A stretch of 26,442 bases of DNA, from the NCBI GenBank assembly GCA_025786725.1, contig JAHLTZ010000111.1, positions 1 through 26,442 on the forward strand, written 5' to 3'. Under the pieces are notes generated by a model. The model saw only the letters and a program-made list of their open reading frames with translations. It did no database searches and was not told the origin of the DNA. The stretch comes from Syncephalis fuscata. Its lineage: Eukaryota > Zoopagomycota > Zoopagomycetes > Zoopagales > Piptocephalidaceae. This document shows positions 1,286 to 23,607 of the stretch, in pieces. The translations under genes were made by a program, and so were the position numbers. Positions within the stretch are counted from its first letter, which is position 1. Each line of letters opens with the position of its first letter.

Positions 1286-3250
1286 TATTTATGTTATTGA
1301 CATTAAACAATACCAAACACTTCATTAGTTATTTAGTGTGATTTGAGGAAGAGGAAAGGATTAAATGACTAAATTTAGTAATATTCGTGTAATTAAACTA
1401 AACTTTTCTTTTATTGAACATAGAATTAGATGGTGAATGACATTAAAGTTTAAATACTCAGTTTCTTCGTAACCAACTTTCTAAACTTTTTCACTATATT
1501 GTGATCTTCATGATTTAACAAAAATGTTGGGCAAAAGAATATGACTTAAGACCTTGATGACATAGCTAGCATCCCGCATAGTAATTATGTCGGATGGTTT
1601 TATGATATTTTTAGTAATTTTAGGATTAATGACACAGCTTGTGATACTATATTGCTCTATATATTTATTATTGAAACAATTGGAACAATATAGGGCCTTC
1701 TTATGTTACAGATACTTGTTGTAATTGATACGTAATAGCGTATTAATTACATATGATTTACCAGTATTGTGAAACTATGTTACAAATACTGGGTATTTCT
1801 TCAACTTTTTTCACTATATATAAACAGATACATATCATAGTAATAAAAATAACACTATTCACATCTATAATATCGCTTTTTTTATTCATTCTACTTTGAA
1901 ATAATTGTCAACAGCTTTGCTATACCTAACAGTACAGCTATTTTAGTTATTTTCAAGTGCATATCATTCTTATTCACAGTCGTAAATTTAGTAAAATAAT
2001 TTATTAGCAATATGGAATATCTACAGAACACTACATCCAGCCAAGAACAAGCAGAAGCTTCATCTTTTGTATATGAAGCGGGGCGTCGTTTTCATGGTGA
2101 AAAAAATGCACCTTATCCGTACGCTAACGACCAGACTGAATCAAATAGGTAAGCATTCGTGTATAAAACAAACAAGATAACATTTTATAAATATTTGTTA
2201 TTTTATGATTATTTAGGTTAAACGGACAACACCATGTGCTTAAACATCTACTCAACGGCAACTACATGAGCAAGCTAAATAATCCACAAAAAACATTTGA
2301 AGTGGGCAGTGGCAGTGGTATATGGGCTACAGTAAGTGGTTGTGTTTATTACAGCATTCTAAAACAATTAACAACTTACTAAATGGCATTTTATAGGAAA
2401 CGGCAGAGGAGTTTTCCCAATCTGAAATAAGCTGTATTGATATGTCTCCCGCACCATCTCTTGCAAAACTTCCCAGTAATGTCAAGTTTGAAACTATGAA
2501 TGCTCTCAAGGGTAGGCTTAATTATAATCAATAAGTGCAACAGTACATTAATCATTTAAATAATAATAGGTATTAAGTACGAGGACAATACATTCGACTA
2601 CGTTTATATGCGGCTATTATGCTCATCAGTGCCAGAAGATTATTGGCCTGTACTTGTCAAAGATCTAGCACGTGTTTGCACCTCCGGTGGTGCCATTGAG
2701 CTTGTTGAAACCAACAGTCAATTAATAAATGCTGGGCCATTGGGCCAGGAAGTTACTACATGGATTGATACTGTGTGTCGTAGCCGTGGCGCTAATCTAA
2801 GTAAAGTATGGCAGATACCACAAATGATACAACAGGCTGGCTTACAACTAGAGACTGAGCACTACATCGAGTTTCCTCTCGGGGCATGGTGTGATCAAGT
2901 GGGCCATCAGGGCTGGTTTGTTTTGCTCAGTTTGGTCAACTGCATAAGTGCTAAAATTATGTCCACATGCAATGTTACAAAAGAAAGATTTGATTATGTT
3001 CTTGAAAACCTGCACGAAGAAAATGTCACTAATCGTGTTTATTGGAAATTTGGCATATTCGTTGGACGCAAGCCATAAGGATTAAATAGCGCCAGTATTA
3101 ATTATAGCCATTTTATATCTAAATTCATTTTGTTAAACATGACAATAATATTGTTTTAAAATATTGTATTCAAACCTATATTCAAATTGACTAATTATAT
3201 CAATTGTTATTAGTTAATATTTAAATAATAATAATAATAGCAATATTTTA
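1286..3250 (+). repeat. Tandem duplication, unit 1 (promoter + methyltransferase gene + 3' flank)
   Basis: Unit 1 aligns with 3251-5060 in the same orientation from its upstream flank (ATACAATACC-like block near 1300, matched near 3270) through all four exons to the 3' flank (TAAATAGCGCCAGTATTAAT just after both stop codons). Unit 1 carries about 230-280 bp of extra upstream sequence (roughly 1663-1940) absent from unit 2. The extra part contains short internal repeats, such as TTACAGATACT and TTACAAATACT. Confidence 0.85.
2012..3078 (+). CDS. Class I SAM-dependent methyltransferase, copy 1 (4 exons)
   Basis: Exons 2012-2148, 2217-2331, 2397-2511 and 2570-3078 give a 291-residue protein. All three introns (68, 65, 58 nt) are GT-AG and the phases agree. 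Motif I (the SAM-binding glycine loop) is at about residues 73-83 as FEVGSGSGIWA. The usual acidic position is E instead of D and the second G-x-G reads GSG instead of GTG. Later come VYMRLL-PEDYW, the GGAIELVE strand and AGPLGQEV, all typical of fungal LaeA/UMTA-like class I methyltransferases. The substrate is unknown; this family includes small-molecule and protein methyltransferases. The start is chosen because the first 38 nt after the ATG are nearly identical in copy 2. The changed motif I may mean altered cofactor binding. Confidence 0.85.
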
Positions 3251-5060
3251 TTTCTGTTGTTGACATTATACAATACCAAACACCATTGGTTATTTTAGTG
3301 TGATTTAATGATCAATTTACTACATTTAGTAATATCTACGTAGTTGAACTAGAATTCGCTCTTTTGAACATGAAACTGGGTAGTGACGCCAGACATCAGA
3401 ATTATTGTCATTGTCATTATTCTCTATGTACAATATATTTAGTTGCACTATTATTACTGCGTATTTATATCACTATATGTCATTTATCTATATTGAATAA
3501 GTTATATTCAAAACTGAAGGACTCGGTCGTTTATATGATTAATAGCATATTTACATTTTTGTAGCCAACTTTTTAAACCTTTTTATATATTATAATTTCC
3601 ATAAGTCAATATATGTGCTAAAAACGTATCTTAAGGTCTCGCTGCCTTTCTAGTATTACACATGATGACACTATCTGGTTTAATGGTATTTATAGCAATT
3701 TTAAAATCGATGACGTATTTTGTAATACAGTATTGTTCTATATAACTACCCTTTCATTTAGTTCTTTTCAAATCCATATCATTTTTATTCACAGTCGTAA
3801 ATCTAGTAGTATATCTTTGTTAGCAATATGGAATATCTACAGAACACTACATCCAGCCAAGAGCAAGCGGAAGCCGCTTCTTGCGTATATGAAGAAGGTC
3901 GTCGTTTTCATGGTGAACAAAACGCACCTTATCCAATGCCGAATGACTCAAGTGAAGTAGATAGGTAGGTATTGTATATAAAAAATACAGCATAACACCT
4001 AATAAATAGCCACTATTCCATGAATATTTAGACTAAATGCGCAACATCATGTAATTAAAAGGTTACTTAATGGCAACTACATGAGCAAGTTAAATAATCC
4101 ACGAAGAATATTGGATGTAGGCAGTGGCACTGGTATATGGGCTAAGGTAAGTAGCTGTGATTATTACAACACTAGTATAATTAATAATTTACTAAATGAC
4201 ATTAAGTAGGAAATGGCAGAGGAATTTCCTCAATGTGAAATAAATTGCATTGATATATCTCCAGAACTGTCGATGAACAACCTCCCCAGTAATGTCAAGT
4301 TTGAAACTATGAATGCTCTCGAGGGTAGGCTTATTAGCCACTGATACATGTAAAACTACTTTAATCATCCAGATAATACTAGGTATCAAGTACGAAGCCA
4401 ATAAATTCAGCTATGTTCATGTGCGGCTATTATGTATAGCAATACCAGAAGATTATTGGTTTTTATATATGAAGGATTTGACGCGTATTTGCTCCTCTGG
4501 CGGTAGCGTTGAGCTCTTTGAAACCAATGGTGAATTAATGAATGCTGGGCCATTAGGTCAAGAAGTTAACTTTTGGTTTGATACTATGAGCCGCAGGCGC
4601 GGCGTCAATCTGAATAAAGCCTGGCAGATACCACAAATGATGCAAGAAGCCGGCCTACAAATGGAAACTGAACACTATATCAAGATTCCTATTGGAGAAT
4701 GGTGCGATAAAGTGGGTCACCAGGGCTGGACTGATTATTACAATCTGATCCATTCACTGACTGCTAGAATAACGGCTACATGCGATGTTACAAAAGAAAG
4801 GCTCGATTATGTTCTCGAAAACCTGCACGAAGAGAATATCACTAATCGTGTTTACCGGAAAATGGGTATATTTGTCGGCCGCAAGCCATAAAGATTAAAT
4901 AGCGCCAGTATTAATTCTAGTCATTTTTATACCTAAATTCACTTTGTTAAACATGATAATAATGTTGTTTTTAAATATTGTATTCAAAACTATATTTAAA
5001 CTGACTAATTATATCGATTATTATCAGTTAATATTTAAATAGTAATAGTAATATCAATAT
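3251..5060 (+). repeat. Tandem duplication, unit 2
   Basis: This is a direct repeat of 1286-3250, abutting it with no intervening unique sequence. Upstream, coding and 3' flanking parts all align, so the whole transcription unit was duplicated, not a retrocopy: all three introns are kept at identical positions and phases. Confidence 0.85.
3828..4891 (+). CDS. Class I SAM-dependent methyltransferase, copy 2 (4 exons)
   Basis: Exons 3828-3964, 4032-4146, 4210-4324 and 4383-4891 have exactly the same lengths (137, 115, 115, 509 nt) as copy 1 and give 291 residues. Motif I is canonical here (ILDVGSGTGIWA). The rest follows the paralogue: RLLCIAIPEDYW, GGSVELFE, AGPLGQEV and a conserved C-terminus ending VGRKP. 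This looks like the functional reference copy, with copy 1 diverging in the cofactor loop. Introns are 67, 63 and 58 nt. The substrate cannot be predicted. Confidence 0.88.
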
Positions 5061-7820: not shown

Positions 7821-10800
7821 ATGTCTTCCAAAGTGCTTAAAAGACTTCTTGAAGAAGCGTCTCGTATCGTCCAAGGTAAGCTCATCCCGACAGCAATAGA
7901 CACTTCTTCTCTCCGCCCCATACACACTCTATCTGCTCTGCGCCTATTTTGACATCTGCAAGACGTCAAAAAGAGAACTATGAGCCGTCTCGTGTCTCAC
8001 GCCTCTACTTGTCATTGCTGTCAGGCTGGCGCATGAGTCTACATGGCTCTTGTCGCCCTTTATATCTCTTACTCGCTTTCTCTTTCTCGACGTCTTCGTT
8101 CTTACTCTAGCACTACCTGGCCTCACCGTTGCCTGTAACCTTGTTCCTTTCTTTATATTGCAGATCAAGATCAGCCAGTCTCAGCAGCACCTGAAGTGAT
8201 GTCGGCCGTCTGGGTCAAACTTCTTCAAGGTTTACCGAGCAGTTCACGCTTTACGGAGCTGGGCATTGACCAAATCCTAGTCGAAAGCAAGATTCCTAAC
8301 CAAGAGCCCAATGTTGCCGGCCTTCGTAAAACACTTATCACCGATATTGCTTTCCAAGGCAAGCTCGATGGCGTAGCCTCGTCCGACCTAAAAGTCTACA
8401 ACAACGACGAAGATGCTACCAACCAGAGAGAGCCTATTGAAGAAGATACTTCACTCTCAGATCTTATTGAGGCCGGGAAGGGCGGTAGGAAGAAGACTGC
8501 TTTGATCGTTGTAGCGCCACCCAAGCCTGGTAAGTAGTTTTGCTTTAAAGACCAGCAGTCAATACGGCTCCTTCCTCTGCCGTTTGCTTTTGCTTTACGT
8601 CTATGTAGTACTAATATTTAACTATTCTTTCCATTACTCCGATATATCCATGTGCCTGTCTCATCATGTGCCTCTACTTCGCTTCCTGGCCATCTTTCAG
8701 ATCAATCGCGTCCTGGTAAGTGCACTTAGACCTTTTTTAAATACTCATTGTGTAACCTTATCTTGATTACTTAACGTTATTTTTTATCACCTTTTTTGAT
8801 CATGTAGCAACACCCATCCAGCAGACGTCTATTCCGAATGATCGCATCGAAAAGGAATTAGATGTCATTCTCCAAGGCGTCAACCATCATCCCACTTGTC
8901 CTATCAATTCAAATGATGTTGAAGCTTCGCAGAGAGATAGACTAGGACCCTTTTACAAAAGGACTTTACCATATTACAAAGCAGCAACAAATATAAGTCT
9001 AGTGATGTTGGGACTTGAATTGGGCAAGCAAGCAATCGGCAGAAATTATGAAACTCTTTGTACAATTGTCAAGGAAGACATAGAATGTTGTGATCATCGC
9101 GTAGTGGCCATGGTTGCCCCGTCCGGTTCAGGAAAGACTGCAACAGTCATTGACCTTGCGAGCAAGCACTTTGTCATTTATTGTGTCTGTTGTGAACCAA
9201 CTCCAACCAACTCTTCGAATTTTAAGGATTCAAACTTTATTACACTTGCAAATGATGTCGAGAATATATACCGGGCCATCATTAACAAAAATCAGGGAAA
9301 TTTTCTCGGTCCGCTGGACATTGATGCTGAAGTGAAAGCACGAGTGAGAGAACGCGTCAAGCTCGAATTCCTTGCACGAATGCTTTTCCTTCAGTATCTC
9401 CTAAAAAACAATCGTGATTTAGAGCCGCAGCAGTTCTTCCGTGAGCAAATCACTAGAGGTGACTCGACTATTAGCGAGCTAGTTGACAAGCTACAGAAAT
9501 ATGACGACCGCACAATCCAAACCATGCTTCGTAAAGTTCAAGCCAAGCTTTGGTCTTTTTTATCTTCCAAAAAACGTGGACTGGTGATTGCTTTGGATGA
9601 AGCTCAGGTTGCAGTGGCTCACATCTTATCCAATAAGCTCATCTCGCCGACAGCTTTGAGTAATAATAAAAATACACTTTTTGACGATAAGAACCAGATA
9701 CAATCCCAATACCGCCGCAGCTTTCTTACGCCTTTATCAGGTGCTTTGAGCGAGATAGAGGCAACGATAGTGATACTGGGCACAGCACTCTCATTGCAGG
9801 ATGCCGAACAGGTGCACACAGCCATCGCCAAAGAACCCAATTTCTTAAAAATAACGGACTTTCCAAGTTTTGATGAAGATGATGTGAGCAGGCTATACTC
9901 GGGTCTAATCGACATGTCAGGCTGTGAAATCCCGCTTGCCAAACGCCGCAAGCTAACAGGACGACCTCGATTTTCCATTAACGGCATCAACCGTCTCGCC
10001 AAGTCTTGCACTTTTCGAGGCTCTAAACAAGCTATTCTGGAGCACGCTATTGACGAGTCGATTGAGTATACAATAAATGGTCTTCGGGCCAAGATACGCG
10101 CCATTCTTGCCAACGATCAAGCAGGTGGGATAGCTCGGCTTCTCTCTTGAATGGTATTGGCCTATCATCTTCACAATGGCAAAATATCTTTCTTAAGCAA
10201 TGACCAGTCCGACTTTGTGGATAAAGCTCTGTGCAGACTACGATCACATGATAATGACATTCACTTGGTCATGGACGAGCCAATAGTTGTTGAGACAGTG
10301 CAGGAAGAGCTAAAGGCTTTAGGCAAAGATCCGGTGTTCTCTGAGTACATGGATCAATTTAACCAAATTATCACCAACTTTGGCACCGCTTCAGCTTTAA
10401 AGGGAGATGCGTTGGAGCCACTTGTCCGCCGATCACTTCAACGCTTCAATGGCTACCGTCTTGTTGACCTTCCTTTCCTTCAAGGCGTCACATTGCCCGC
10501 TTGGTGCAGCAATTTCCAGCTCCAAATTGATGAGATTAAAACAGCCAATGGATTTGGATACACTGGCAATGGCGTTCGTGCAGATCTCGCCTTCCTCACC
10601 GAATGTCCTCCGAACAAGATGCTTATTGCCAATAATGGCACACGTCCGGATGGAGTCTGGTTTTTCTCTGACAAACGTTACGCCGGCTCTCTTGCGATCA
10701 AGCTCTACAGCAACCGTCTGAAGCAGTCCACCCACGACTCTAACAAAACTTCCAGCAATATTCGGAGTTGTTTTTGAGCCGGGATGGTATCAACATGAAC

Positions 10801-11902: not shown

Positions 11903-13215
11903 ATGTCTACTAAACTATTTAAAAAAGCTATATTTAACAGTATTAAAAAACTGAGAGCCGCTATTGACAAGTTTAAGCTTGTTAACAGTTGCAATTTTAA
12001 GAGTAAAATAGCAATTCAACAAGATTACAGCTTATTTGTCCTCATGAAGACCGTTCCAGCAACAAATGCCAGTTTGTTTTAACTGCCAAAAAGCGGAAAA
12101 TCGGCTTATTAAAAATTGTTTAATGCAATATTAAACATTTTAATGGTTGTTTATATGATTCTGGTAATGATACTATTAAATCTATTATTAAATATATTAC
12201 AAGTGGTGTCGCTATATTCTCAAATGTAAAATCAACAGATGTACGAACAAAAGTATCAATGTACACATTTGATTAGTTAATATACAATAACAATTGCAAT
12301 AGCTTAATAGATGCTATTATTTCTTACTACAAAGCTTGTTCTGCTCTTAATTTAATGGAAAAGAATAACATTAACAGCAATATTAATTTTTTTTCATTTA
12401 TTAAATATTACTTTATCAAATTTGAACATTTTAATCCGGATTCTGTTCAGCACTTCTTGCAAAACCAGTCTGGTAATTTTGAAAGAACATTTTTATGCCA
12501 TTTGTTATCTATTAAAGCTTGCCAGTATACCCGTAAAGTACTGGTAATTGATGGTTGTTATTTAAGGTTTTCTTATGGCGGTATTGCTCTTGGTGCAGTT
12601 GTTAAAGATGGAAATAATAATATTTTACCTTTGGCTGTTGCTATAGTATTTCATAAAAATGAAAACAACTGGGTCTATTTCCTTAAACGTTTAGCAGATT
12701 CAGTACCTGAATTAAGTATTCACAAGCTCAAGGATTGTTAACTAATAATAGCTATTTTTTGTATAAATCAACATTAACTGACATCAATAACTATATAGTT
12801 GATGATTATTCTGATACCAAATTTCAAATTAAAACTACTAATTTTGAAGAATTGTGGGTTTTTATTAAATGATTTTATTAATAAATCTTACACCATTGAT
12901 TATTTGAACAAATTATATGCTCCAGAAATTTGCCTGGTTGAAATAGAGCCAATTACTGCGGATGTTTTGTGTTTGCCACCGAAAATAACGAAGAAAGCCG
13001 GTGGATCAAGAGTTAAAAGAATTAGATGTTGTGGTAAAGCTTTGAAAGCCACCCAACGATATAACTGTCGCAATTGTAGCTTAAAAGACACAATACAAGA
13101 ACATGCACTGCAAACACTAGCACTAACAATGTTGAAACAAGCATCTTTATTGAGGAACAAATACAAACTACTAATGAAACAACTATCAAGAAAAGCGTTA
13201 TTAAAGAATGTTTAA
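11903..13215 (+). mobile_element. Decayed MULE (Mutator-like) transposase
   Basis: This is a broken transposase in pieces. 11903-12082 (59 codons) and the following frame, with stops, look like the N-terminal zinc-binding region (CPHEDRSSNKCQFVL, then HFNGC). 12355-12741 carries the start of the catalytic domain, VLVIDGCYLRFSYGGIALG and GNNNILPLAVAIV, then ENNWVYFLKRL; the D of VIDG is the first acidic residue of the MULE DDE triad. 12905-13215 matches the C-terminal tail, with PPKITKKAGGSRVKRIRCCGK and a degenerate zinc knuckle YNCRNC. The central part with the second D and the E is missing, so the element cannot be autonomous. Terminal inverted repeats were not found. Confidence 0.75.
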
Positions 13216-15313: not shown

Positions 15314-16268
15314 ATGCGACTTTCTATTGCCATCTTCTGCGTTCTTTTCGTGGCTTTTGTGGCTAATACAAGCATAGTAGATGTTAGTCCAACTCTAACC
15401 CGGCGTGGTACGTTACAATTACAATATATTTTATAGAGCTATGCTTATAGTATATAATTAACCAATGATGTTGTTAGGCGGTAAGTCGCAACTACGTAGC
15501 GCCGGTTATATGTTAACTGGCAATTCAATTAAACATTGCTTTTTATTAAACTAAAACCAATAGAAAGTAAGTACCATACTTCATTAGTTACATATACACT
15601 AATTTCATATTGCCTCTATGTATCAATAATTTACTATTACCAGAACGTAAGTAGTATTGCATATTGGTTGTTTATCCTCTAATCACAAACTATGTATCGT
15701 ATTCATTAACAATTTAATGTTAAAAGGCTGTAAGTAATACTGTATATTAGTTGACCACGTATTAAATAAATACTATATGATATTTGTATTAAAAACTTAA
15801 TATAATAGGTCGTAAGTTGTATTGTATATTAATTAGCTACGCACTAATTGCATATTGTACACTTTGTGCATTAATAATTTAATATGGATAGCTTGTAAGT
15901 GGTATTGCATACTGATTAACTATGTGCTAATTACAATTTGTTTATTATGCATATTGGCAAATTAACATTGATAGATAGTAAGTGATATTACATGTATATT
16001 ATTCGTGTCAATAATTTAATGTTAATAGTTAGTAAGTTGTATTATATGTCAACTAGCTATGTACTAATTATATGATATGTATTTTGTTTATTGGCAAATT
16101 GATTTGATAGATTGTAAGTGTTTTACATGGAAATTAATTATTTACTAAATATATACTCACTATTTGCATCAAAAACTTAATATTAATAGGTTGTAAGTAG
16201 AATTACATATTATTGTTTTATGAATTAATTATATGTCATTTGCTATGTGTATATATATAAACATAGAA
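15314..16268 (+). CDS. Secreted small-peptide gene with ten consecutive 3-nt micro-exons
   Basis: Exon 1 (15314-15407) encodes 31 residues: a classical signal peptide (MRLSIAIFCVLFVAFVA), then a short propeptide ending TLTRR, and it ends in phase 1 at a GTACGT donor. Downstream, ten triplets are each enclosed by an acceptor AG and a GTAAGT donor: 15478-15480 GCG, 15564-15566 AAA, 15644-15646 AAC, 15727-15729 GCT, 15809-15811 GTC, 15892-15894 CTT, 15975-15977 ATA, 16029-16031 TTA, 16111-16113 ATT, 16190-16192 GTT. Spliced in order they read GEKRCPYINC, then TAA if the next acceptor is the TAG at 16264-16266. Introns are 51-83 nt. KR is a Kex2-type cleavage site, so the mature product could be a Cys-bridged hexapeptide. 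Use of every triplet is inferred from sequence. A final acceptor at 16297 would add two residues. Confidence 0.6.
15478..16198 (+). repeat. Tandem array of ~80-bp intron units, each delivering a variable triplet
   Basis: GTAAGT recurs at 15481, 15567, 15647, 15730, 15812, 15895, 15978, 16032, 16114 and 16193. The spacings are 86, 80, 83, 82, 83, 83, 54, 82 and 79. Units share internal words: GTATTGCATA or GTATTGTATA after the donor, CTAATTA or CTAATTGC in the middle, and AATTTAATGTTAATAG or AAACTTAATATTAATAG at the 3' end. The triplet between AG and GTAAGT differs in every unit, while the surrounding intron sequence is conserved. Confidence 0.85.
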
Positions 16269-17156
16269 TAACTGATACACGCAAGACATTAACATTAGTA
16301 GCGTAATTAGACTGCAGCCTAATTTATTTTAAATACATATTTGAAAAGCAAAAACCACTGACACCTATGCCATTTAGACCATCCAAATATTAAATTTTAG
16401 CCAACTCTCTGGTTTATTCATCTATGTAGACTTGTTTGAGTAAACACAAGTTTGTTTTAATTGTATTTAGCAATCTGTTACATTTTGTTCAGTGTTTATT
16501 TACATTCAATGATCAGCAGTGATTAATCAACTAAGTAAATTAACAGCAAATTTATACAAATATACTTTGTTTCAAATATATATACACGGTTGTTCCAATA
16601 TTGATACTAAAATAGCAATATTTTATTTGAATAGTGTGACAATATCTACTAACAATGTAATCAGCTGTACTAATTTGAAAAATGCCATACAGCCAAAGAG
16701 CTATAATATTGGTAGAAGTATAGTAATACTTCATTATTCGCTTTGAATCTATGTACATTGTTATAAAACAGGCGTTATAGTATTGAATATTGCACAATTA
16801 GCACTTCACTCTATTGAAAATAGTACCGTTTAGTTAAAACTATTACCAAACTATGTATTAAACGAATTAAGTGCGTACACTAATCAATAATCATGCTAGT
16901 GACAATTAATGGATACCATGAAAGAGGAAACTGATTGAAGATAAAGCAATATAATTAAGAACAAACAATGAATGCATTGGAATAAGCAAATGATGTAAAA
17001 TAGCTGACACTTTGAATCAAATAGTGTAATTAAATCTTTTTATTATGATCTAATATGGGCATCACTAAATAAATGGTCCAATGTGGATTGCACACTTGAA
17101 TATAAGTTTTTATTCTTTTTATATATAGTAAATATGCAATTTTAAGCTAATATTTT
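16269..17156. other. AT-rich spacer
   Basis: 3' region of the micro-exon gene followed by AT-rich sequence. The open frame at 16519-16746 has no start context, motif or splice sites that would support it. Confidence 0.45.
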
Positions 17157-22308: not shown

Positions 22309-23607
22309 CTATTCCGAAGCCATGGCCTTCTTGATCTTGGCAATAGCCAAGCCAGGATTTAAACCCTTTGGACAAGTACGAGTACAGTCTAATAGCAGTT
22401 AATAATCATATCTATCTATCTATCTGTTAGCTAATACTTACTCATGATGGTATGGCAACGGTATACGCTGAAGGGACCTTGCAATTTGGCACGGCGTTCA
22501 GGACCAAATTGATCCTAATAGTAAAGAAATCATTAGATTCAAGCATACAGCTTACTGTATCTAAAATATACATACACGACTATCCGCCTGCCAGCGGTAA
22601 GCTTGCAGCAAGGCAGCTGGTCCAAGGTACTTGTCCTGATTCCACCAATAGGACATACATGAAGTAGAACAGCACGCACACAAGATACATTCATATAGAC
22701 CATCCTAATAAACAATTTACATTAGCTATCCTCTCTTTAGCTGTTATTCATCAATAACGCTTACCAACTTCTTTCGCTCTTCAATCGATTGCAGGTTTTC
22801 TTTGCCATCCTTAGGTGGGTCTCGTTGTTGCAAATATGGCTCAATAAATGCATATTGGCGATAGAAATTGGTCAAATCTGGCACCAAATCCTTAATGACG
22901 TACATATGAGGCAATGGATAGATCTTTAGCGATTTGCCTGCATCACGGTCAATACGAGCAGTACAGGCCAGTGTATTGCCACCACCAATATTCATGGCAC
23001 ATGAACCACAAATACCTATCATCAAATACATTTAGTATATCTATCTAGCAAGTAATAAGGCCTATAGATACCTTCACGGCAAGAACGACGGAAGGTCAAT
23101 GATGGATCGATTTCATTCTTAATCTTAATAAGCGCATCCAATACCATAGGACCGCATTGATTGATATCTACTTGATAAGTTTGCAAATGTGGCTTTTCAC
23201 TAGGCTGTTCTGGATCCTATTATTAACACAAATATAAATGTTGTTGTTATTGTTATTATTGTATATCAGTGTGACATGGTAACGGTGTATTTGTTATTAA
23301 TTGCTTACCCAGCGATAGATTTCAAATTTCTTTAGTAACACTGGTTTGCCAGTAGATGCATCGGCCTCCTTGGCCATCGATGTTTGCACCGATGTTTGAA
23401 TGCCACGCATCTGTAGAATAAATAAAGACCATAGTAAGCAAGTGGCCATATTGGTCGGTAATTGCGTCATCCAATAGACATCATCGTATGTTATACGAGC
23501 AATCGTCTATTCAAACATCAAATGACATAACGTACCGTAATCGAGGAGAGACGCGTGTTTGGACGTGCCGTCCTAAGTGAGTTAACTACTGCTCGTGAAA
23601 ACGACAT
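22309..23607 (-). CDS. SDHB: Succinate dehydrogenase iron-sulfur subunit, mitochondrial (7 exons)
   Basis: Minus-strand exons 23536-23607, 23309-23410, 23072-23216, 22765-23015, 22576-22704, 22442-22514 and 22309-22388 give 852 nt, 283 residues. It is the electron-transfer subunit of complex II, passing electrons from the flavoprotein to ubiquinone at the inner mitochondrial membrane. The N-terminus is Arg/Ser-rich, as in a matrix targeting peptide. The [2Fe-2S] ligands lie in [13 protein letters not shown] (C104, C109, C112) and at C124. The [4Fe-4S]/[3Fe-4S] set lies in [11 protein letters not shown] (196-206), CHTIMNC (253-259) and TCPKGLNPG. The motif normally reading SCPSYWWN is SCMSYWWN: Met207 replaces a proline lining the quinone site. 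Introns are 125, 92, 56, 60, 61 and 53 nt; the intron at 22389-22441 contains a TATC microsatellite. Confidence 0.95.

Follow-up and report, generated by a model that had tools for sequence, protein, structure and literature searches.

Can a protein be encoded one codon at a time, in a row of exons of only three nucleotides? The question is raised by a locus on the plus strand of a stretch of DNA of 26,442 nucleotides, which we refer to as the window. The first-pass annotation had proposed that this locus is a micro-exon gene, with ten copies of AG-NNN-GTAAGT at a spacing of about 80 bp behind a 94-nt exon encoding a signal peptide, and had claimed that all ten triplets preserve the frame and that the composite frame is open. 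We confirmed that the ten units are present (15476-16198, all on the plus strand). Their start-to-start distances are 86, 80, 83, 82, 83, 83, 54, 82 and 79 nt, so that the spacing is about 80 nt for eight of the nine intervals and 54 nt for one. AG-NNN-GTAAGT was found 11 times in the whole window, with one match (13475) outside the array and none on the minus strand. When the window was shuffled (n=100), the mean number of matches was 0.73 and the maximum 3. Tandem Repeats Finder made no call on the array.

In the predicted gene, the signal-peptide exon is followed by ten exons of 3 nt and by a final exon (Table 1). Inspected by eye, the product of exon 1 displays a hydrophobic N-terminus, which is the predicted signal peptide, followed by a short pro-region ending in RR. 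When exon 1 and the ten triplets were joined and read in the exon-1 frame, the translation was free of stop codons (MRLSIAIFCVLFVAFVANTSIVDVSPTLTRRGEKRCPYINC) with one base, T, left over. The claims concerning the frame are thus correct, and the end point given in the first-pass annotation, 16268, is the last base of the TAA formed across the final junction. The spliced gene would give a secreted precursor of 41 residues with the C-terminal end RRGEKRCPYINC. We prefer the last acceptor at 16265-16266, as the final exon of the paralogues starts at the equivalent place (judged by eye). Another acceptor, leading to an exon from 16299 and adding LA before the stop codon, was considered, and the family final exon favoured 16267. 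Between 16282 and 16420 the identity to the paralogue L056 is 68.5%, and BLAST matches the 3' end of the gene to the paralogue from 16282 on, 15 nt past the predicted start of the final exon. The gene is short and its product has only two cysteines; it could be a shortened or decaying member of its family, and the peptide may be a short loop peptide or a reduced family member.

Table 1. Predicted features of the micro-exon gene and other genes in the window
Feature	Position	Strand	Remark
Exon 1	15314..15407	+	94 nt; start codon, signal peptide, pro-region ending RR|G; last base is the first base of a codon
Intron 1	15408..15477	+	donor GTACGT, acceptor TTGTTAG
Micro-exon 1	15478..15480	+	GCG
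Micro-exon 2	15564..15566	+	AAA
Micro-exon 3	15644..15646	+	AAC
Micro-exon 4	15727..15729	+	GCT
Micro-exon 5	15809..15811	+	GTC
Micro-exon 6	15892..15894	+	CTT
Micro-exon 7	15975..15977	+	ATA
Micro-exon 8	16029..16031	+	TTA
Micro-exon 9	16111..16113	+	ATT
Micro-exon 10	16190..16192	+	GTT
Last intron	16193..16266	+	GTAAGT...AAACATAG
Final exon	16267..16420	+	3' limit approximate; TAA formed across the junction with micro-exon 10 (T at 16192, AA at 16267-16268), then 3' UTR
Methyltransferase-like genes	2560-3078 and 4024-4891	+	two alike genes in tandem
Large P-loop protein	8139-10777	+	GSGKT; no Pfam match; N-terminal part taken to be like Crinkler-type headers
MULE-type transposase fragment	12277-12741	+	slightly below the Pfam cut-off
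Fer2_3 gene	22744-23506	-	ordinary introns, used as splice-site reference; presumably the succinate dehydrogenase iron-sulphur subunit (SDHB)

The first-pass annotation had also suggested a search for other such loci in the same genome. We searched 28.95 Mb in 299 contigs, and a large family was found. Paired units 60-90 bases apart numbered 2,907 (1,232 forward and 1,675 reverse), while the reversed-pattern control gave 7 (3 and 4, respectively). The strict unit TTAATAG-N3-GTAAGT was present 1,992 times (reversed control, 1), and the corresponding patterns with N4 and N6 only 5 times (control, 4) and 6 times (control, 2). As the N3 counts far exceed those for N4, N6 and the reversed controls, the one-codon spacing is both specific and widespread. 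With a better-conserved exon 1 as the query (MKLSIAVVCTIVVALVASTAMVDANPVLVRRG), 150 matches were scored, of 331 candidates. Exon 1 of the window gene is related to the family exon 1 on sequence comparison, and the window locus is a short member of this genome-wide family. The arrays are often neighbours or local duplicates, as at 225 and 245 kb on contig C2 and at 430 and 436 kb on contig C68; the arrays at 475 and 534 kb on contig C1 are in opposite orientation.

Splice models were constructed with donor and acceptor scores derived from the arrays and chained blind to stop codons; exons of 3 nt were favoured, and after them those of 3n. Arrays much longer than that in the window were obtained, with 34 micro-exons in L010 (33 of 3 nt), 41 in L014 (40 of 3 nt), 42 in L074 (40 of 3 nt), 31 in L064 (30 of 3 nt) and 29 in L072 (27 of 3 nt). 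L015 contains 42 micro-exons, 41 of which are 3 nt long and 39 of which are single-codon exons in a row. The first-pass remark that ten successive single-triplet exons would be extreme therefore holds, but understates the matter. In the 48 modelled genes with 614 exons, 578 exons were of 3 nt, 33 of 6, two of 2 and one of 4. In a count made apart from the model and free of any length prior, the spacing between a strong acceptor and GTAAGT was 3 nt in 521 of 525 cases. The length of exon 1 was 3n+1 in all 28 arrays having at least eight modelled units.

Some arrays are damaged or interrupted, with damaged units or inserts seen in L009, L073, L075 and L082. Of L073 (joined with L076) and L075 (joined with L078), one has a frame-shifting 2-nt unit and the other a unit without the acceptor AG; these two arrays may be pseudogenes or may reflect sequencing errors. 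The sequences that interrupt L009 (approximately 3520-3930) and L082 (from approximately 2365) have a similar start (TTTTGAAGAGCTTGTG), and the insert in L009 has a tRNA-like end containing GGTTTGAACCC. Judged by these features, the inserts look like a SINE or small mobile element within the intron arrays. A donor of the GC-AG type, GCAAGT, was observed in an array unit of L009 (1494-1499).

The composite frame was examined next. Eleven loci at the same place as another or nearly copies had been left out beforehand, and L009 was absent from the list. From the 48 modelled genes, 20 with fewer than eight units were dropped (the intronless ones described below included), and then four near-duplicates, leaving 24 non-redundant arrays. 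Fewer than eight units had been modelled for L009 (which has an insert), L011, L012, L019-L021, L025, L027, L029, L032, L034, L041, L042 and L058-L060; at the places of L011 and L012, the scan for unit pairs shows more units than the splice model gave. In the exon-1 frame, the 24 arrays contained 2 stop codons and 76 Cys codons in 484 codons, the stops being one each in L026 and L075. When the order of the triplets was shuffled within arrays (2,000 times), 23.7±3.8 stops were obtained with a minimum of 11, and the number of Cys codons was 36.9±4.5 with a maximum of 52. The triplets' own frame (offset 0) had 3 stops in 507 codons and the third frame 36 in 485. The offset-0 frame is nearly stop-free because few triplets are themselves stop codons, and the argument from the frame consequently rests on the order-shuffle and Cys tests. 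As shuffling adds stops and lowers Cys, it is the order in which the triplets stand and the codons across the junctions that carry the information, and these are read only when the introns are removed.

The predicted products are secreted precursors of small size that carry a dibasic site; many have cysteines in the arrangement CxxCxxxC...C. The spliced products of L010 and L064 are RRGSVAECKTCLSHCTRGGDTRKYCKIHCSHNYFPAQC and RRGDPAQCAACVENCKRRTGLDWGKCRNGSCRTIC, respectively. Not every array encodes a cysteine peptide, as L084 (hydrophobic) and L085 (heptad-like) are without the Cys pattern. L085 has 32 pattern matches and a modelled open frame (RLKNLEKQVEEINSHLTVL) with a heptad-like helix, and no exon 1 was identified for it in the stretch examined. 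Five family proteins gave no match above the Pfam cut-off. Against the PDB, a sequence search with one protein gave no match and a profile search none that was significant, the best being scorpion neurotoxins (E 0.43). Our guess, by analogy, is that the products act towards a host, a rival or a partner.

We compared the array introns with ordinary introns of the same DNA. Five ordinary introns in three genes of the window (the presumed SDHB gene and the two methyltransferase-like genes; assigned by eye) are 56-92 nt long and end in AATAG, GATAG, TTAG or GTAG. The introns of six arrays (n=187) are 51-85 nt long, with a median of 78. As their size and splice sites resemble those of the five window introns, the array introns seem to be of the genome's ordinary kind. 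The third base of the triplets is A in a proportion of 0.30, T in 0.28, G in 0.26 and C in 0.17, without an exon-end consensus. Taking into account general knowledge of splicing, 3 nt cannot seat both neighbouring sets of splice factors at once, and the introns are therefore probably removed sequentially.

What we regard as the strongest support for the splicing model came from paralogues that have no array at all. Seven intronless loci were found (L051, L052, L053, L054, L056, L057 and L063, the last at the same place as L035), encoding five different proteins as L052 equals L053 and L056 equals L057. In each, the family signal peptide runs straight into a cysteine-rich mature part in one open frame. 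An alignment of ten sequences revealed that the signal peptide and the CxxCxxxC-type spacing are common to the intronless and the spliced-array products; spliced L014 has a longer gap between the first two cysteines, and intronless L056 one extra residue before the third. When a 66-residue intronless protein was used as a query, 104 of the 150 scored matches ended by residue 37, which is the exon-1 boundary, 17 reached residue 57 or beyond, and 29 ended between.

Five of the intronless members were then compared by BLAST with six array genes, and junctions were counted in 25 comparisons, those with the diverged window gene being left out. Through the end of exon 1 the array genes are about 68-89% similar; a gap over the array follows, and the similarity resumes near the final exon. 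On the 5' side, its end lies no more than 3 nt from the donor of exon 1 in all 25 comparisons. On the 3' side, its restart lies no more than 2 nt from the predicted final exon in 15 of the 25, namely in four of five comparisons each for L010 (predicted final exon 4306), L064 (4159) and L074 (5086), and in three of five for L072 (3368). In the other ten, the resumption is 4-21 nt off the prediction; these include all five for L014 (4637), where it comes 12-21 nt later. As the similarity runs on into both flanks, simple dispersed retrocopies do not account for the intronless members. These have the appearance of genes whose array was exchanged for its spliced form, as in cDNA-mediated intron loss.

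Judging from the DNA sequence, we consider it highly probable (approximately 0.9) that the locus codes for protein and belongs to a large family of genes for secreted precursors, in which the mature part is laid out in tandem exons that are almost always single codons. The genome-wide family, the order-dependent frame test and the intronless paralogues, which end and mostly resume at the predicted junctions, strongly support the initial proposal of a secreted micro-exon gene with consecutive single-triplet exons. Exon 1 would provide the signal peptide and a dibasic (RR) pro-region, at which the precursor is presumably cleaved. Each unit would contribute an ordinary intron of about 50-85 nt and usually exactly one triplet, in a single phase. 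Transcription and the removal of every intron, likely one by one, would then join the triplets into a small, often cysteine-rich peptide, and the stop codon would lie where the final exon begins or close by. As the phase is the same and the introns are homologous throughout, the exchange, loss or gain of a unit would alter the peptide without a frameshift. The turnover of units, together with selection on residues, would diversify the mature peptides but leave the signal peptide unchanged.

Could the units instead be a non-coding tandem repeat or a small-RNA array, with AG-NNN-GTAAGT conserved as a motif and no chain of codons? The units are indeed tandem, about 80 bp long and AT-rich. However, stop codons are depleted and Cys codons enriched in a manner that depends on the order of the triplets, exon 1 has the length 3n+1 in every array counted, and intronless counterparts exist. 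The window, moreover, has no Rfam family at the gathering score, and no tRNA. We therefore regard a non-coding array as very improbable. A coding alternative is that mobile introns of the introner type have inserted into nearly every codon, in which case the intronless members would be ancestral and the triplets old codons. This would agree with the likeness of the introns inside arrays (median identity 0.70-0.76 in six arrays) and with triplets that are near chance identity unless their flanks are nearly identical, as described below. On the other hand, exactly 3 nt between introns and a single phase would not be expected from independent insertions. The relationships among the genes point in the same direction. 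In a tree of 650 nt of upstream sequence and exon 1 (43 rows, leaving out L011, L012 and L075; midpoint root), the 6 intronless rows nest among the array genes and need 2 changes, with only 1 change needed in 12% of 200 bootstrap trees, so that a single origin may still apply. We consider a spread of introners improbable.

The other alternative concerns the use of the array rather than its nature. It may serve mainly for alternative splicing, with varied skipping of units producing many peptides from one gene. As almost every exon is a single codon and the phase is shared, any skip would stay in frame, and schistosome micro-exon genes do splice in this manner, according to excerpts of PMC10526429. 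The donors are not suggestive of regulated skipping, as the full GTAAGT is present in 10 of 10 cases in the window, 29 of 34 in L010 and 36 of 41 in L014, and each intronless paralogue holds one fixed order. A main role in alternative splicing thus seems rather doubtful to us.

How do the mature peptides of such single-codon arrays come to differ? Paralogues with a nearly identical promoter and exon 1 have strongly different mature sequences. L073 and L074, neighbours on the same contig, are identical over 800 nt upstream and at 93 of 93 exon-1 positions compared. Their arrays are mosaic, with the introns of units 4-12 being 99-100% identical in 7 of 9 and those of later units about 74-92%. 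Between the intronless L051 and L054, identity is 96% upstream, 92 of 93 positions in exon 1 and 97% downstream; in their mature parts, which differ in length, 62 of 82 aligned bases agree. Within arrays, the identity of triplets was 0.33 where the poorer flanking intron was less than 55% identical (4 pairs), 0.26-0.34 at 55-90%, 0.49 at 90-95% (27 pairs) and 1.0 above (4 pairs).

Hypermutation of the triplets had at first been suggested by the divergence between L073 and L074 (0.43 for triplets versus 0.06 for introns), and was set aside when the alignment of units revealed mosaic shifts. In 72 unit pairs with flanking introns at least 96% identical, the divergence was 0.0093 for triplets versus 0.0072 for introns, with 2 changed units. 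At a threshold of at least 93% (88 pairs) the values were 0.0303 and 0.0132 with 5 changed units, and at one of at least 98% (53 pairs) 0.0126 and 0.0027 with 2 changed units. These events are too few for rates to be compared, so that the triplets of strictly orthologous units may or may not change faster. The first-pass annotation had inferred that the locus is a device for generating peptide variants. The variation between paralogous arrays, one pair of which is mosaic, gives this partial support. With one codon per unit and a single phase, the frame survives any exchange within introns. We prefer recombination between homologous introns as the source of the diversity, mainly on the basis of the one strongly mosaic pair, and the simplest reading would be exchange, gain or loss of units between arrays together with longer-term selection on residues. 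It is possible, and we suggest it tentatively, that single-codon cassettes with homologous introns as recombination sites constitute a dedicated architecture for diversification, and that spliced products are occasionally fixed as intronless genes via cDNA.

Some features of the family are familiar. The precursors of conotoxins and similar small secreted cysteine-rich peptides combine a conserved signal and pro-region with a hypervariable mature peptide of fixed cysteine spacing, and in conotoxin-like genes the mature peptide is not known to be split codon by codon. Introner elements are short introns present in many near-identical copies per genome, scattered over genes and phases; the introns here are alike within arrays and, unlike introners, stand in tandem at 3-nt spacing. 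The exons of aphid bicycle genes are small, yet not single-codon. Excerpts of PMC9168663 give these genes an average of about 17 exons, with almost all internal exons starting at codon position 2 ('phase 2'). Internal exons start at the same position in the present family, as exon 1 is of 3n+1 and nearly all exons are of 3n. Like this family, the aphid bicycle and megacycle genes encode effector-type proteins from many small exons, evolve fast and form a large family. Bicycle genes, however, are animal genes with a CYC motif, whereas the present family has CxxCxxxC; the string CYC was absent from the ten aligned family sequences.

In Schistosoma micro-exon genes, as described in excerpts of PMC10526429, exons are 6-81 bp (3-81 in the abstract) and mostly 15 bp long, introns are 0.1-5 kb, and there are 10-20 short exons per gene. 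The two families have in common secreted products with a conserved signal peptide, many tiny, mostly 3n exons and a fast-changing mature part, and a signal-peptide exon followed by many symmetric 3n exons is found in the present family as well. The size range differs, as nearly all internal exons are of 3 nt here, the introns of the six arrays fall below the range above and up to 42 micro-exons are present. The introns of the present family are homologous to one another, and the likeness to the schistosome genes described here is one of gene layout. The organism that carries it, moreover, is probably a fungus: with a GGPPS exon as the query, several chains of terpene synthases and copalyl synthases, which are fungal enzymes, came out ahead of GGPPS of the human type. 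The family works like micro-exon and bicycle genes, yet lacks defining features of each, namely the exon and intron sizes of the former and the CYC motif of the latter. Single 3-nt exons are reported to be spliced in animals (RPS24 and PICALM) within ordinary genes, whereas here arrays of them encode the whole mature protein. Among the matches listed in a literature search of incomplete coverage, none mentioned arrays of 3-nt exons in its title or at the start of its abstract, and the passages found on exons and introns in a chytrid genome paper (PMC5364385) contain nothing on such arrays.

If the splicing model is true, we know of no protein-coding gene that is split more finely than those of this family. 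The structure bears on how the spliceosome defines exons of 3 nt without exon definition, and on whether splicing must be sequential. Automatic annotation would probably miss such genes, here and in other genomes, and the signals of frame, phase and spacing provide a simple method to search for them. The intronless copies make cDNA-mediated intron loss directly testable. The family would also be a concrete case of introns speeding the diversification of proteins, an idea long debated. If the cassette reading is true, the introns would serve as the machinery by which proteins evolve codon by codon, in more than 100 genes of one family.
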